64,000 nt of DNA from Gammaproteobacteria bacterium (GTDB taxonomy: Bacteria; Pseudomonadota; Gammaproteobacteria; Natronospirales; REEB76). A program made the translations under genes and the position numbers. Positions 6,168-28,355 of the stretch are shown piece by piece. The stretch's first letter is position 1. Every line of letters starts with the position of its first letter. The DNA lies in assembly GCA_036383255.1 (NCBI GenBank), contig DASVOS010000005.1, forward strand, positions 1-64,000, in the 5' to 3' direction. Below the pieces are notes generated by a model. That model was not told the DNA's origin. It made no database searches and saw only the letters and a program-made list of their open reading frames with translations.

Positions 6168-7124
6168 TCAGGCCCGGTCCGCCGGGAACGCGATCACTTC
6201 CTCTATAGACCGGGCACCGGCGGCGATCATTACCAACCGGTCGAAACCCAATGCTACGCCGGCGCAGTCCGGAAGACCTTGCTCCAAACCCGCCAACAGG
6301 CCCTCGTCCAGCGGCACCTCCATGAGGCCCTGGGCCTTGCGGTAGGCCCTATCCGCCTCGAAGCGGCGCCGCTGCTCGGCCGCGTCCGAGAGCTCGTGGA
6401 AGCCGTTCACCAGCTCCACGCCGCCGATGAAGGCCTCGAAGCGCTCCGCCACCGGCGGCTCGCCGGGCCACACCCGGGCCAGGGCAGCCTGGCTCGCCGG
6501 ATAGTTATATATAAAGGTGAGGCGCCCCTTGCCGAGCGCCGGGTAGACCAGGTCCCCCGCCACCATGTCCAACCAGCCGTCGTAATCCAACTGGTCCTCG
6601 GCCGGCACCTGGCGTCCCGCGCGGTTCAAGGCGGCGATGCAGTCCTTGCTGCCGGCGGTGACCACATCAAAGCCCGCATGGGTCTGGAAGGCCTCCCGGT
6701 AGGTGAGGTATTCCGGCGGATCGAGTTCCGGCAGCAGCGCGCCGATCAGCTCCGCCACCTCCGCCATCAGCTGGTGATGGTCGAAACCGATCCGGTACCA
6801 CTCCAGCATGGTGAACTCGGGGTTGTGCATGCGTCCCGCCTCGCCGCTGCGGAACACCTTGCAGAGCTGGTAGATATCGCCCACGCCTGCGGCGAGCAGG
6901 CGCTTCATGGGGAACTCCGGAGAAGTGTGAAGGTACAGATGACCCTTGCGGCCATCCTCGACACGGAAACTCTGGATGTGGCGGTCGGTGGCGCCTGCCC
7001 GGGACAGGGCCGGCGTATCCACTTCCAGCACGCCACGGGTGGAAAAGAAAGCGCGGAACTTCGTCAGAAGCTCCGCGCGCAGCTTGAGATTATCTAGCGA
7101 GGCTGTGGGCTGCCAGTCAGACAT
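6168..7124 (-). CDS. epmA: EF-P-(R)-beta-lysine ligase
   Basis: 318 residues, resembling the catalytic domain of class II lysyl-tRNA synthetase without the anticodon-binding domain. EpmA attaches (R)-beta-lysine to Lys34 of elongation factor P. Motifs include FLEVDTPALS-like motif 1 (GVLEVDTPALS), CKVFRSGEAGRMHNPEFTMLEWY (motif 2 region, read in pieces) and ALGFDRLVM (motif 3). It lies 17 bases downstream of efp, with the aminomutase gene epmB divergent from efp, so ligase, substrate protein and beta-lysine source sit together. Confidence 0.95.
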   Translation of the reverse strand: MSDWQPTASLDNLKLRAELLTKFRAFFSTRGVLEVDTPALSRAGATDRHIQSFRVEDGRKGHLYLHTSPEFPMKRLLAAGVGDIYQLCKVFRSGEAGRMHNPEFTMLEWYRIGFDHHQLMAEVAELIGALLPELDPPEYLTYREAFQTHAGFDVVTAGSKDCIAALNRAGRQVPAEDQLDYDGWLDMVAGDLVYPALGKGRLTFIYNYPASQAALARVWPGEPPVAERFEAFIGGVELVNGFHELSDAAEQRRRFEADRAYRKAQGLMEVPLDEGLLAGLEQGLPDCAGVALGFDRLVMIAAGARSIEEVIAFPADRA

Positions 7125-23936: not shown

Positions 23937-24074
23937 TTGCATCCGGTGAATGCTGTGCTATACCCAACAGCTGTCACCAAACGGAACCAAGGATCTGGTT
24001 CGCACAGAACAGGTGACAAGGATGCCGGCTCCGGCCGGCTTTCATAATTCTACTTAACCCAATCGGGGGTCTAC
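23937..24074 (+). promoter_or_regulatory. Promoter and structured leader of the secreted HEATET-motif protein gene
   Basis: TTGCAT (23937-23942) lies 15 bases before CTATAC (23958-23963). The leader then has stem I, GTCACC pairing with GGTGAC about 45 bases later and enclosing an inner GAACCA/TGGTTC hairpin, followed six bases later by stem II, GCCGG/CCGGC. It ends in CGGGGGTCTAC before the ATG. The same layout precedes the S53 peptidase gene at 25419. Confidence 0.6.
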
Positions 24075-25094
24075 ATGAAGACCAGTGTCGTTCTCTGGGC
24101 GTCGCTCGCGACTGCCTTGTCTGCTACTGCGATATCCGCCACGGCCGCACCTCGGGCCGGCTCCATGGTCGGCAATCCCGCCGGCAACGTCCGCATCCTC
24201 GAACGCGGCCAGCGGCCAGTGGTGATCCACCCGACGGTGGATGGCATCAAGATGCAGCGCGAGGAAGCCCGTGCCACCCAGAAGGCCAGACCGCGCAAGT
24301 CCGTCAACCTCACCTACCACGGTGGCGTGGGCGGCATCGGCGTCGAGACTTCTCCCAAGCTCTATCTGGTGTTCTACGGCTCCCAGTGGACCAACAACGA
24401 TCCGAGCGGTGAGGCGAGCCTGCTGCAGTCCTTCTTCAGCGTGGTGGGCGGCAGCTCCTGGGCCAACTCCGTCACCCAGTACTGCCAGGGCGTCCCCAGC
24501 GGCACCACCTTCTGCAACGGCGCTGGCCAAGCGGCGGGCAATCCGTCGGGCATCCTGCAGGGCGTGTGGTTCGATTCGGGTTCTGCGGCCCCCAGCCGCC
24601 CGAGCCAGTCGCAGCTCGCCGCTGAGGCGGTGCGTGCCGCCCAGCACTTCGGCAACACCGCCGCGGGCAGCAACAACAGCACCCAGTACGTGATCGCCAC
24701 CGCCACCGGCAACAGCGCCAGCGGCTTCGGCACCCAGTACTGCGCCTGGCACAGCTCAACGAGCTCCAGCTACGGCAACGTGGCTTACACGAACCTGCCG
24801 TACATCACGGATGCGGGCTCGAGCTGCGGCGCCAACTTCAACGGACTGGGTCCGAAGGCCGGCGTCACCATGGTGTCGGGCCATGAGGCGACCGAGACCA
24901 TGACCGACCAGTTCCCGAACGGCGGCTGGCTCGACGGCAGCGGCGCGGAGAACGCCGACAAGTGCGCCTGGATCTCCTCGGGCCAGGGAGCTTCCGCGAA
25001 CGTGAGCTTCCCCGGCGGCGGCAGCTATCCGGTGCAGTCGCTGTGGAGCAATGCGTTCAATAACGGCGCGGGTGGCTGCGTCCTGTCGTATTGA
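24075..25094 (+). CDS. Secreted protein with zincin-like HEATET motif (putative peptidase)
   Basis: 339 residues with a Sec signal peptide (about 1-25, ending SATAA). A likely pro-region (26-75) precedes a domain with LTYHGG and LVFYGSQW. Near the C-terminus is SGHEATETMTDQFPNGGW, then SGAENADKCAW; this HExxxE-type motif followed by a conserved Trp/Asp-rich patch resembles secreted zinc-peptidase-like and EXORDIUM-like bacterial proteins. Four or more cysteines suggest disulfides. Its leader and terminator are near copies of those of the S53 peptidase gene that follows, so both exoproteins are probably co-regulated. Catalysis is not proven. Confidence 0.75.
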   Translation: MKTSVVLWASLATALSATAISATAAPRAGSMVGNPAGNVRILERGQRPVVIHPTVDGIKMQREEARATQKARPRKSVNLTYHGGVGGIGVETSPKLYLVFYGSQWTNNDPSGEASLLQSFFSVVGGSSWANSVTQYCQGVPSGTTFCNGAGQAAGNPSGILQGVWFDSGSAAPSRPSQSQLAAEAVRAAQHFGNTAAGSNNSTQYVIATATGNSASGFGTQYCAWHSSTSSSYGNVAYTNLPYITDAGSSCGANFNGLGPKAGVTMVSGHEATETMTDQFPNGGWLDGSGAENADKCAWISSGQGASANVSFPGGGSYPVQSLWSNAFNNGAGGCVLSY

Positions 25095-25127
25095 TGACTG
25101 GATAACCAGAGTCCCAGGGGTTTTTGG

Positions 25128-25159
25128 GCCGGAGGCGGCGACGCCTCCGGCCTTTTTAT
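25128..25159 (+). terminator. Terminator of the HEATET-motif protein gene
   Basis: Perfect 10-bp stem GCCGGAGGCG / CGCCTCCGGC with GCGA loop and CTTTTTAT tail. Between here and 25297 I see only AT-rich sequence with no gene. Confidence 0.95.
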
Positions 25160-25297
25160 CTGCATATGCACAGGCATGGACGGTTGCTGTTCGCCAAGAA
25201 ACTTCCATCGGCTGATATAAAAGAGCCGCACATCATGCGGATTTTCACGCTTCCACGAAATTTACTTCATCGGCTCGCTTTTAGCGGCCACACAAGC

Positions 25298-25418
25298 TTG
25301 CAAGCCTTGAATCCTATGCTATATCCCTTAGCGGTCACCGCAGGCAAACAACAACAAGGTGACAACGAGCCGGATATAACGCCGGCGCTACACAATCCAT
25401 CACCCACTCGGGGGTTAC
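25298..25418 (+). promoter_or_regulatory. Promoter and structured leader of the S53 peptidase gene
   Basis: TTGCAA (25298-25303) and CTATAT (25319-25324) have the same 15-base spacing as in the leader at 23937. Then stem I GTCACC...GGTGAC, a 5-base spacer, stem II GCCGG...CCGGC, and CGGGGGTTAC before ATGAAGAC. Loop sequences differ from the first copy while stems are kept. Confidence 0.6.
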
Positions 25419-27032
25419 ATGAAGACGTCGAAACTGCTGTTGCAGGCAGCGATCACCGCTGCCGTATCCGTTCCTGCGCTCTCTTCCGCCGCCAGCCTGG
25501 CTCATCAGGAACGGGGCATGGTGGCGAACAACGTGCCGGCCATCGTCGCCAAGTCGCACCTCGTCGGCCGTCACAACCCGGCGGGCAACCTTTCGCTCAT
25601 CGTGAGCCTCAAGCTGCACAACACCGGCCAGCTGGAGAGCTTCCTGCGCGACGTGCAGGACCCCTACAGCCCCAACTACCACCACTTCCTCACGCCGCAG
25701 ACGTTCACCGAGCAGTACGGCCCGACCCGTGACGAGGTCGCCGCCGTCAGCGAGTTCCTGAGCCGCAACGGCATCCGTGTCACGGACGTGTCCGAGAATC
25801 GCATGCTGATCCACGCCCAGGGCCAGGTCGCCGCGGTGGAACGCGCCATGGGCGTGACCATCAACGACTACAGCTACGGCGTGCGCCGCTTCTTCGCGGC
25901 GTCCTCCAACCCGCGCCTGCCGGCGGAGGTCGCTTCCTCCGTGCGGTCGGTGATGGGCCTCAGCAACTCCGACGTGATGCGCCCGCACCTGGTGATGTCG
26001 CCCAACGGCAAGCCGGGCGGCGGCGGGACCCCGGCGGGCTTCTCGCCCAACCAGATCGCCACCGCCTACAACTGGCCCTCGGTGACCAGCACCGCCAACG
26101 GCGCCGGTGTGAAGATCGCGGTGGCCACGGCATTCACCTACAAGAGCTCGGACCTCACGAGTTTCTGGAGCCAGTACGGCCTGCCGAGCCACAGCGTGAC
26201 CGCGATCGCGGTGGACGGCACCACACGCAAGACCGACGTGGAGACCACCCTGGACATCCAGCGCAGCGCCGCCATGGCGCCGGGCGCCGCGATCCTGGTG
26301 TACGAGGCCGCCAACGCCCAGCTCACCACCTTCACGGACTGCTACAACAAGGTGGTGACGGACAACCAGGCGGATGTGATGACCACCAGCTGGGGCCTGG
26401 ATGAGAACAGCACCCCGGTGTCCAGCATGCAGGCGGATGACGCGATCTTCGCCCAGGCCTCGGCCCAGGGCATCGCGCTGTTCGCCGCGGCGGGCGACAA
26501 CGGCGCCTCCGACGGCACCAGCGACTCCGACAATGCCGACTTCCCGGCCTCGGACCCGCACGTGACCGCCGCGGGCGGCACGCACCTGGTGCTGGCCAGC
26601 AACGGCAGCATCTCCAGCGAGACGGTGTGGAGCGGCAGCGGCGGCGCGGACAGCGTGCAGTTCGGCCAGCAGTCCTGGCAGGCGGTGCGCAACGTGCCGC
26701 AGAACGGCCATCGCGTGAGCTCGGACCTGTCCATGGACGCCGACCCCAACACCGGCTACTCGGTGCTGAGCGGCGGCCGCTGGGCAGTGTACGGCGGCAC
26801 CAGCTTCGTGGCGCCGGAACTCGCGGGCCTGTTCGCGGTGCGGGTGGGCCAGGTGGGCCGCCTGGGCCAGGTGAACGCGCTGATCTACGCGAACGCCGGC
26901 ACGAGCAACTACTCGACCGACTTCCACGACATCACCTCGGGCAGCAACGGCTTCAGCGCCGCGGCCTTCTGGGACTATCCCACGGGCTGGGGCACGCCGA
27001 ATGCGTCGAGCCTGATCTCGCACATCAACTAA
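25419..27032 (+). CDS. Secreted S53-family serine-carboxyl peptidase (sedolisin/pseudomonalisin type)
   Basis: 537 residues: signal peptide (about 1-25), a pro-domain of the Pro-kumamolisin activation type (about 45-190) that ends before a glycine-rich linker (198-206), then the catalytic domain. The sedolisin residues are present: Glu275 and Asp279 (DVETTLD), Asp360 (AAAGDNG) for the oxyanion hole, and nucleophile Ser462 in GGTSFVAP. The C-terminal calcium site is DFHDITSGSNG. Such enzymes are self-activating acid endopeptidases. The leader and terminator are near copies of those of the preceding exoprotein gene, suggesting a shared secretion programme. Confidence 0.95.
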   Translation: MKTSKLLLQAAITAAVSVPALSSAASLAHQERGMVANNVPAIVAKSHLVGRHNPAGNLSLIVSLKLHNTGQLESFLRDVQDPYSPNYHHFLTPQTFTEQYGPTRDEVAAVSEFLSRNGIRVTDVSENRMLIHAQGQVAAVERAMGVTINDYSYGVRRFFAASSNPRLPAEVASSVRSVMGLSNSDVMRPHLVMSPNGKPGGGGTPAGFSPNQIATAYNWPSVTSTANGAGVKIAVATAFTYKSSDLTSFWSQYGLPSHSVTAIAVDGTTRKTDVETTLDIQRSAAMAPGAAILVYEAANAQLTTFTDCYNKVVTDNQADVMTTSWGLDENSTPVSSMQADDAIFAQASAQGIALFAAAGDNGASDGTSDSDNADFPASDPHVTAAGGTHLVLASNGSISSETVWSGSGGADSVQFGQQSWQAVRNVPQNGHRVSSDLSMDADPNTGYSVLSGGRWAVYGGTSFVAPELAGLFAVRVGQVGRLGQVNALIYANAGTSNYSTDFHDITSGSNGFSAAAFWDYPTGWGTPNASSLISHIN

Positions 27033-27055: not shown

Positions 27056-27090
27056 GGCCGGAGGTGGCGACACCTCCGGCCTTTTATTTA
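27056..27090 (+). terminator. Terminator of the S53 peptidase gene
   Basis: 11-bp stem GGCCGGAGGTG / CACCTCCGGCC, GCGA loop, TTTTATTTA tail. It differs from the terminator at 25128 by a T-A for C-G pair exchange in the stem, keeping the pairing. Overlaps the 3' end of the convergent kinase gene. Confidence 0.93.
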
Positions 27091-28355
27091 GGCCGCTCAC
27101 TGCGGGTGAGGCGCTCGATCATCCCGCGCATGAACATCTTGTGGAAGCGCAGCTGGCAGGACATGGTGAGCTGCTCCAGCAGGGTGGCGCTCACCTTCAG
27201 CACCGAGCAGGCGCTCTTGGCCACGATCGCGGAAGTGCTCTTCTTGCCGCCCATGGCGGCGGCCTCGCCGAAGCAGTCACCCTCGTGCAGGCGGCCCACG
27301 GCCTTGTTCTGGCGGCGCACCTCCGCCTCGCCGGATACCACCAGCAGGAAGGCATCGTCCATGTCTCCTTCCACCAGGATGGACTCGTCCATGCCGTAGC
27401 TGTGCCAGCGGCCGGCCTGGAGGATCTCGAAGATCTCGGGATAGGTGAAGTCCTTGAAGAACGGCAGGCGGCGCAGCATGGAGAAACGCTCCTGCTCCGC
27501 CATCTCCTGGTCCAGCTGGTCTAGCTTGCGCACCGCCTGGGAGAGCGCGGTCGCGAACTCGATGCCGCTCTGGTAGCGCTTGGCGGGGTCCTTGGAGATG
27601 GCCTTGGAGACCACCTCCTCCAGCACCGTCGGCACGTCGGGACGCAGGCGATGCAGCGGCGGCGGCGTGGCGTAGATGATCTGGTGCACGAGCTTGGACA
27701 GGTTGTCCCCGTAGTAGGGGCGCTTGCCCGAGAGCAGCTCGTACATGACCACGCCGAGTGAGTAGAGGTCGGTCTGCACCGAGGCCGGCGCGTGGCGCAT
27801 CTGTTCCGGGGCCATGTAGCTCGGGGAGCCGACGAGGCCCTTGACCTGGGCCTCCTCGTTGCCGGCCATCTGGGCCACGCCGAAGTCCACGATGCGTACG
27901 TCGCCCTCGACCGTGAACATGATGTTGCCGGGCTTGATGTCGCGGTGGATGAGGCCGTTGCGGTGGGCATAGTCCAGCGCCTTGGCGCACTTGAACACCA
28001 CTTCCACCACCTTGCGCACCGGCAGCAGGTTCTCGATGCGGCAGAAGGTGGTGAGCGGCTTGGCGCCGCGCACATACTCCATGACCACGAAGCAGTGGCC
28101 GGCGTCCTCGCCCGCGTCGTAGATGGGCAGGATGTTGGGGTGCTGCATCTTGCCGACGAGGTAAGCCTCGTTGAAGAACAGCTTGCGCCGGGTGCGGGCA
28201 TCCGCCTCCGGCACGTTCTCGTCCAGGCTGTAGAGCTTGAGGGCCACGTCCTTGCCCAGGAACGAGTCGTGGCACAGGTACACCGTGCCGGTGGTGCCCC
28301 GGCCGAGTTCCTGCGTGACCACGAATTTCCCGAGCTTGGCGGGTATCGCCCCCAT
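27084..28355 (-). CDS. Ser/Thr protein kinase fused to a cyclic-nucleotide-binding-like domain
   Basis: 423 residues, cytosolic (no membrane segment). The Hanks-type kinase domain (about 10-270) is complete: glycine loop GRGTTGTV (18-25), Lys40, Glu64, HRDIKPGN with Asp139 and Asn144, DFG at 157-159 and MAPEQ. A C-terminal CNB domain (about 295-410) follows. Its phosphate-binding cassette reads FGEAAAMGGKKSTSA, lacking the arginine that binds cyclic-nucleotide phosphate, so the ligand is unclear. Upstream lies pgpA on the same strand, 65 bases away. Substrate and partner phosphatase are not evident. Confidence 0.9.
   Translation of the reverse strand: MGAIPAKLGKFVVTQELGRGTTGTVYLCHDSFLGKDVALKLYSLDENVPEADARTRRKLFFNEAYLVGKMQHPNILPIYDAGEDAGHCFVVMEYVRGAKPLTTFCRIENLLPVRKVVEVVFKCAKALDYAHRNGLIHRDIKPGNIMFTVEGDVRIVDFGVAQMAGNEEAQVKGLVGSPSYMAPEQMRHAPASVQTDLYSLGVVMYELLSGKRPYYGDNLSKLVHQIIYATPPPLHRLRPDVPTVLEEVVSKAISKDPAKRYQSGIEFATALSQAVRKLDQLDQEMAEQERFSMLRRLPFFKDFTYPEIFEILQAGRWHSYGMDESILVEGDMDDAFLLVVSGEAEVRRQNKAVGRLHEGDCFGEAAAMGGKKSTSAIVAKSACSVLKVSATLLEQLTMSCQLRFHKMFMRGMIERLTRSERPK

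Follow-up and report, generated by a model that had tools for sequence, protein, structure and literature searches.

A predicted 5′-terminal hairpin leader on exoprotein genes of a gammaproteobacterium, and a larger covarying leader ahead of secreted protease genes in Rhodanobacteraceae

Unrelated secreted proteases are often co-produced, which is usually explained by transcription factors. In classic targets of CsrA, a GGA overlaps the ribosome-binding site. The SELEX consensus of CsrA is RUACARGGAUGU, with ANGGAN as a known hexaloop (PMC7652899), and the stabilising 5′ hairpin of E. coli ompA provides another precedent (Emory 1992 and Arnold 1998, as cited in PMC2777011). Here we describe two leaders of the window, the whole stretch of 64,000 nucleotides that was analysed. 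Judged from sequence, they represent a real, conserved 5′-terminal hairpin leader of exoprotein genes, a form of structured mRNA leader. The reading we prefer, with a probability of about 0.4, is that each would fold at the 5′ end of the mRNA of an exoprotein gene and serve post-transcriptional control of exoprotease production, CsrA/RsmA being the likeliest partner.

The first gene, EXO1 (24075..25094, + strand), encodes a secreted protein of 339 aa with a signal peptide and a conserved HExxE (HEATE) motif. It had no match in Pfam, NCBIfam or PDB and its predicted fold was uninformative (mean pLDDT 46); homologues occur in Rhodanobacter, Dyella, actinobacteria and acidobacteria. The second gene (25419..27032, + strand) encodes a secreted S53 (sedolisin/kumamolisin) protease of 537 aa carrying a pro-kumamolisin activation domain (Pfam PF09286), and matches kumamolisin 1t1e (E 6.4e-52). 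The two sequences are unrelated. A protein kinase with a C-terminal cyclic-nucleotide-binding domain is encoded next to the S53 gene, at 27084-28355 on the minus strand.

Leader 1 (23937-24074) and leader 2 (25298-25418) both consist of a promoter, stem I, stem II and CGGGGGT followed by ATGAAGAC, and in both the start region reads CGGGGGT(C)TACATGAAGAC. All features lie on the + strand. The promoter of the first gene (23937..23964) comprises TTGCAT (23937-23942), a 16-base spacer and an extended -10 TGC-TATACC (TATACC at 23959-23964). Stem I (23972..24018) starts 7 bases past the -10 box and pairs TGTCACC (23972-23978) with GGTGACA (24012-24018), stem II (24024..24039) is made of GCCGGC (24024-24029), a TCCG loop and GCCGGC (24034-24039), and the ribosome-binding region CGGGGGT (24064..24070) is followed by ATG at 24075. 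Similarly, the promoter of the second gene (25298..25325) has TTGCAA (25298-25303), a 16-base spacer and TGC-TATATC (TATATC at 25320-25325); stem I (25334..25363), 8 bases past the -10 box, pairs GTCACC (25334-25339) with GGTGAC (25358-25363); stem II (25369..25386) is made of GCCGG (25369-25373), a ATATAACG loop and CCGGC (25382-25386); and CGGGGGT (25409..25415) precedes ATG at 25419. The spacer between the stems is 6 bases long in leader 1 and 5 in leader 2. Every leader element listed by the initial annotation was thus located in both leaders, the genes at 24075 and 25419 do encode the unrelated secreted proteins that it had announced, and the strong difference in loop length is borne out by the stem I loops (33 versus 18 bases).

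We observed 4 occurrences of GTCACC-N(8-38)-GGTGAC in the window where 0.2 would be expected, and TCGGGGGT-N(0-2)-TACATGAA exactly twice in the 2.59 Mb genome, at the two window leaders. A third start region, CTCGGGGGTTATATGAA, precedes an EXO1 paralogue at G000:C4:256493. The leader of this paralogue (locus L008, G000:C4:256200-256510) is ~260-280 nt long and very stable (-132.7 kcal/mol predicted for the piece folded), and is laid out as in the window, with a 9-bp hairpin at the predicted +1 first and the same CTCGGGGGTTATATGAAGA last. RNA spanning stem I to stem II was more stable than shuffles (z -3.5 for leader 1 and -3.3 for leader 2); for whole-leader folds, z was -3.0 and -1.4 respectively. 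Since the stem I letters are identical in leaders 1 and 2, this pair alone cannot tell conserved structure from duplication, and within this genome it is best read as a duplicated leader now serving two genes. A rival explanation would be a duplicated promoter-leader cassette that travels with exoprotein genes, its inverted repeats being DNA operators of a transcription factor or without function. Promoter, stem I letters and start region, near-identical between the two leaders, fit such a cassette, as does the lack of other copies in the genome, the paralogue aside. Against an operator, however, the arm-to-arm distance differs by 15 bases between leaders 1 and 2, and its letters should be kept, which is not the case in relatives.

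A search of 12 same-family genomes yielded EXO1 orthologues with 67-71% identity in G003, G004, G007 and G009. Upstream of all four, the order of the window recurs: TTGCAA, which G003 lacks, is followed by TGCTATA, both stems and a G-rich box. TTGCA-N14-TGCTATA is common to leaders 1 and 2 and three of the four relatives' leaders. The stem I arms are CTCGCTG/CAGCGTG, CGCGCTG/CAGCGCG, TGTGCCG/CGGCACG and CGTGCTA/TAGCACG in the relatives, to be compared with TGTCACC/GGTGACA and GGTCACC/GGTGACA in the window. Across the six-leader alignment, pairing was kept in about 95% (95.8% of cells) and 6 of 7 stem I pairs had both-side changes, these counts leaning to structure because the alignment was fitted by hand with the loop masked, and perhaps ~3-4 changes being independent. 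Sliding the structure by 1-3 columns lowered pairing to 26-55%. This change of letters under kept pairing argues for RNA and against a DNA operator: both arms vary and yet stay paired, so that a simple operator was rejected, and we hold the travelling cassette to be quite unlikely. Stem II is near-invariant across the six leaders, almost without covariation, and therefore supplies no compensatory-change evidence. Taken whole, the relatives' leaders showed no stability beyond that of shuffles (z 0.1 to 0.75).

In three of the relatives' loci (L004 on the minus strand, L005 and L007), the ~190 bases between leader and EXO1 start resemble the decaying start of a secreted-protein gene, which begins MDIRLLLKAALGAA... 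in G004, is frameshifted in G007 and lacks an ATG in G003. EXO1 in these loci thus has a second, nearer ribosome-binding site.

A covariance model of the six leaders (R1) recovered only its training leaders in 19 genomes of the order and none new in 369 genomes of the class, and added no copy of weight in the rest of this genome or in the family. It also missed the L008 leader, so diverged members may escape it. One full-length R1 match upstream of an S53 gene in G002 (L026; 18 bits, E 7e-4 in a small search) has a poor stem I and was left uncounted. Against 4227 Rfam models, the window leaders gave zero matches; the c-di-GMP-I riboswitch (RF01051), already discounted by the initial annotation, matched neither at its gathering score nor at E up to 10, and its dismissal can be upheld. 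The place of the element before secreted-enzyme genes, which that annotation had pointed out, is borne out as well. The covariance check that it had suggested did not speak against it among orthologues, whose stem I shows compensatory changes, but R1 brought up nothing new elsewhere in the genome, in the order or in the class. A folded RNA rather than simple duplication agrees with these changes in relatives, whereas the window leaders themselves look like a duplicated cassette and stem II shows almost no covariation.

The distance between the -10 hexamer and the start of stem I is 7, 8, 8, 8, 8 and 5 bases in the six leaders, the -10 boxes being picked by eye, and the 9-bp stem of the L008 paralogue, made of other letters, starts 7 bases past TATAGT. 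A hairpin would fall at that place by chance with a combined p of ~9e-4 (shuffles), G004 alone being not significant. A generic sigma-70 promoter scan flagged no promoter at either window leader. Transcription normally starts ~7 bases past the -10 box, and with stem I 5-8 bases past it the mRNA should begin with stem I; stem I should thus be the very 5′ end of the mRNA, with a start site predicted from the -10 position. The simplest rival to our reading takes up this location: stem I would be a plain 5′-terminal hairpin of ompA type, which would protect the 5′ end against RNase E and pyrophosphate removal, with no dedicated regulator and a loop free to change. It suits this explanation that stem I lies at the predicted +1 throughout, that letters, loop sequence and loop length drift under a kept structure, and that secreted proteins are often made in quantity. 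Stem II and the conserved start region are nevertheless left unexplained by it, and we consider it possible, if doubtful.

Stem II could also be regarded as an intrinsic terminator whose formation is governed by stem I, in a scheme of transcription attenuation. In G004, G007 and G003 stem II is indeed CCGGCGCCCGGTGCCGG followed by TTTTT or TTTT, but in the window just TTTCAT follows it in leader 1 and no T run at all in leader 2. With this T run absent and neither leader flagged by a terminator scan, stem II was rejected as an intrinsic terminator in the window; attenuation appears very improbable.

A larger leader was found in Rhodanobacteraceae (the family that includes the Rhodanobacter genome of locus L075), where EXO1 homologues are preceded by a hairpin 7-8 bases past the -10 box; its stem varies from leader to leader and its loop is of GGGGAG type. 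At E <= 0.1, R2, a covariance model of promoter and first hairpin of this leader, retrieved 22 leaders from 10 genomes, and at E <= 0.001 it had matches in 43 of the 147 Rhodanobacteraceae-type genomes. Genes downstream of R2 leaders encode secreted proteases of the EXO1, S53 and M4 (thermolysin-type) families, frequently as tandem genes ~2.8 kb apart; 23 of 25 further R2 loci run into one of these three, whereas L158 and L179 gave no match from the start that the script had picked. The full leaders, 235-270 nt long (loci L127-L148 and L155-L179), align end to end across all three gene families. Over helices P1, long-range P2 (UGAUCCC/GGGAUCG) and P3, pairing stood at 93.7%; of their 18 pairs, 12 had changes on both sides, in 43 cells altogether, a covariation reached by 0 of 500 shuffles; a P4 helix was weak and was not retained. 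Conserved unpaired stretches, GGGAUCGCUAGGCAA and GGCCGCAUCGGGYYCGYUUGUCC, lie shortly upstream of the ribosome-binding site. This leader had no Rfam match, miRNA matches being due to chance on a repeat, and no paper on such a leader was found in the open-access literature; it is apparently undescribed so far. In L048, L052, L054, L062, L065 and L075, a conserved AAAAAGTCCTATTGAC box is located at the -35 region upstream of the hairpin, and this box may mark a shared activator of Rhodanobacteraceae exoprotease promoters.

The Rhodanobacteraceae leaders bear on two of the alternatives. A plain stabilising hairpin explains neither their long-range helix nor their GGA loop and the unpaired segment ahead of the ribosome-binding site, both of which are conserved. 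Such leaders, with three covarying helices and strongly conserved unpaired stretches, could fit a sensing RNA, riboswitch-like or responsive to pH or ions, through which a signal would set exoprotease output; the typical acid activity of S53 proteases would be in line with it. The window leaders, however, are short, with variable loops, no conserved unpaired core and no Rfam match, so that sensing is unlikely for them, and as an overall explanation we rate it as improbable. R1 and R2 do not cross-match and R2 is silent in the window and in the same-family leaders; the window leaders are therefore not claimed as members of the Rhodanobacteraceae leader. That both would be diverged members of one undescribed RNA class, coordinating the output of several secreted proteases of unrelated kinds in two bacterial orders and perhaps sensing a signal directly, seems to us unlikely.

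In the preferred reading of post-transcriptional control, with CsrA/RsmA as candidate partner, transcription would start at or just ahead of the stem I base, so that the mRNA opens with this hairpin, followed by a second predicted hairpin and then by the G-rich ribosome-binding site. The leader would act after transcription, on mRNA life and ribosome access. CsrA/RsmA would bind GGA sites in the stem I loop and beside stem I, and through this binding the cell could adjust the output of several secreted proteases jointly. From the sequence data, it is likely that exoprotease genes are under a common control at the RNA level. A csrA gene is present in the genome (G000:C11:185790-185945; PF02599 match, 89 bits). 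In leader 1, the stem I loop contains a small hairpin (23984..24001, + strand; GAACCA-AGGAUC-UGGUUC; -7.6 kcal/mol predicted for the isolated piece) exposing CAAGGAUC, a candidate CsrA/RsmA site; the GGA of AAGGAU had an unpaired probability of 0.86 in the whole-leader fold. After stem I, leader 1 has a second candidate site, a full ACAAGGAUG: ACAAGGATG (24016..24024, + strand) fully matches the core of the SELEX consensus and overlaps the end of stem I and the spacer between the stems; it is found twice in the window against 0.7 expected on both strands. In this best consensus match of leader 1, the predicted fold leaves the GGA largely base-paired (P unpaired 0.06).

Unpaired GGA was predicted for the stem I loops of leader 1, of G004, G007 and G003 and of the L008 paralogue. 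Similarly, the first loop of Rhodanobacteraceae leaders carries GGA in 33 of 42 cases, often as a GGGGAG hexaloop, which resembles the ANGGAN hexaloop of CsrA/RsmA targets, and A-N-GGA sites outnumbered all 100 shuffles in both leader sets. The second S53 gene of the genome (G000:C14; L184, ~6620-6640, minus strand) has GCCGG-AUGGAA-CCGGC, an ANGGAN hexaloop, just upstream of its ribosome-binding site. CARGGAT occurs 12 times in the window versus 14 expected; CsrA is common and its motif short. Leader 2 has zero A-N-GGA sites and its sole GGA is partly paired, and the window ribosome-binding sites (CGGGGGT) lack the GGA which occurs there in Rhodanobacteraceae. With leader 2 site-less and GGA absent from both ribosome-binding sites, CsrA is a lead, not a finding.

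One RNA leader type ahead of several exoprotease genes would provide a concrete, testable case for RNA-level co-regulation. The more notable result is the covarying Rhodanobacteraceae leader, absent from Rfam and placed before three secreted-protease families: it is much better supported than the window type, and its alignment could directly serve as the seed of a new RNA family.

Compared with c-di-GMP-I (GEMM-I) and other cis-regulatory families of Rfam, the window leaders are alike as structured leaders ahead of genes for surface or secreted proteins and differ in matching none of the 4227 models. With the ompA-type hairpin they have in common a hairpin at the predicted mRNA 5′ end whose pairing is kept while letters are free, but they add a second stem and a conserved start region, and a stabilising role is here putative. 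With CsrA/RsmA target leaders of the glgC, hcnA and pgaA type they share a folded leader, a putative role in controlling secreted products, a csrA gene in the genome and, in leader 1, a GGA in a hairpin loop before the start; they differ in that leader 2 has no A-N-GGA and the window ribosome-binding sites have no GGA, the CsrA partner being a prediction. Finally, although the Rhodanobacteraceae leader differs from the window leaders by its 235-270 nt and its long-range helix, both place a hairpin 7-8 bases past the -10 box, upstream of EXO1 and S53 family genes and of exoprotease genes arranged in tandem.
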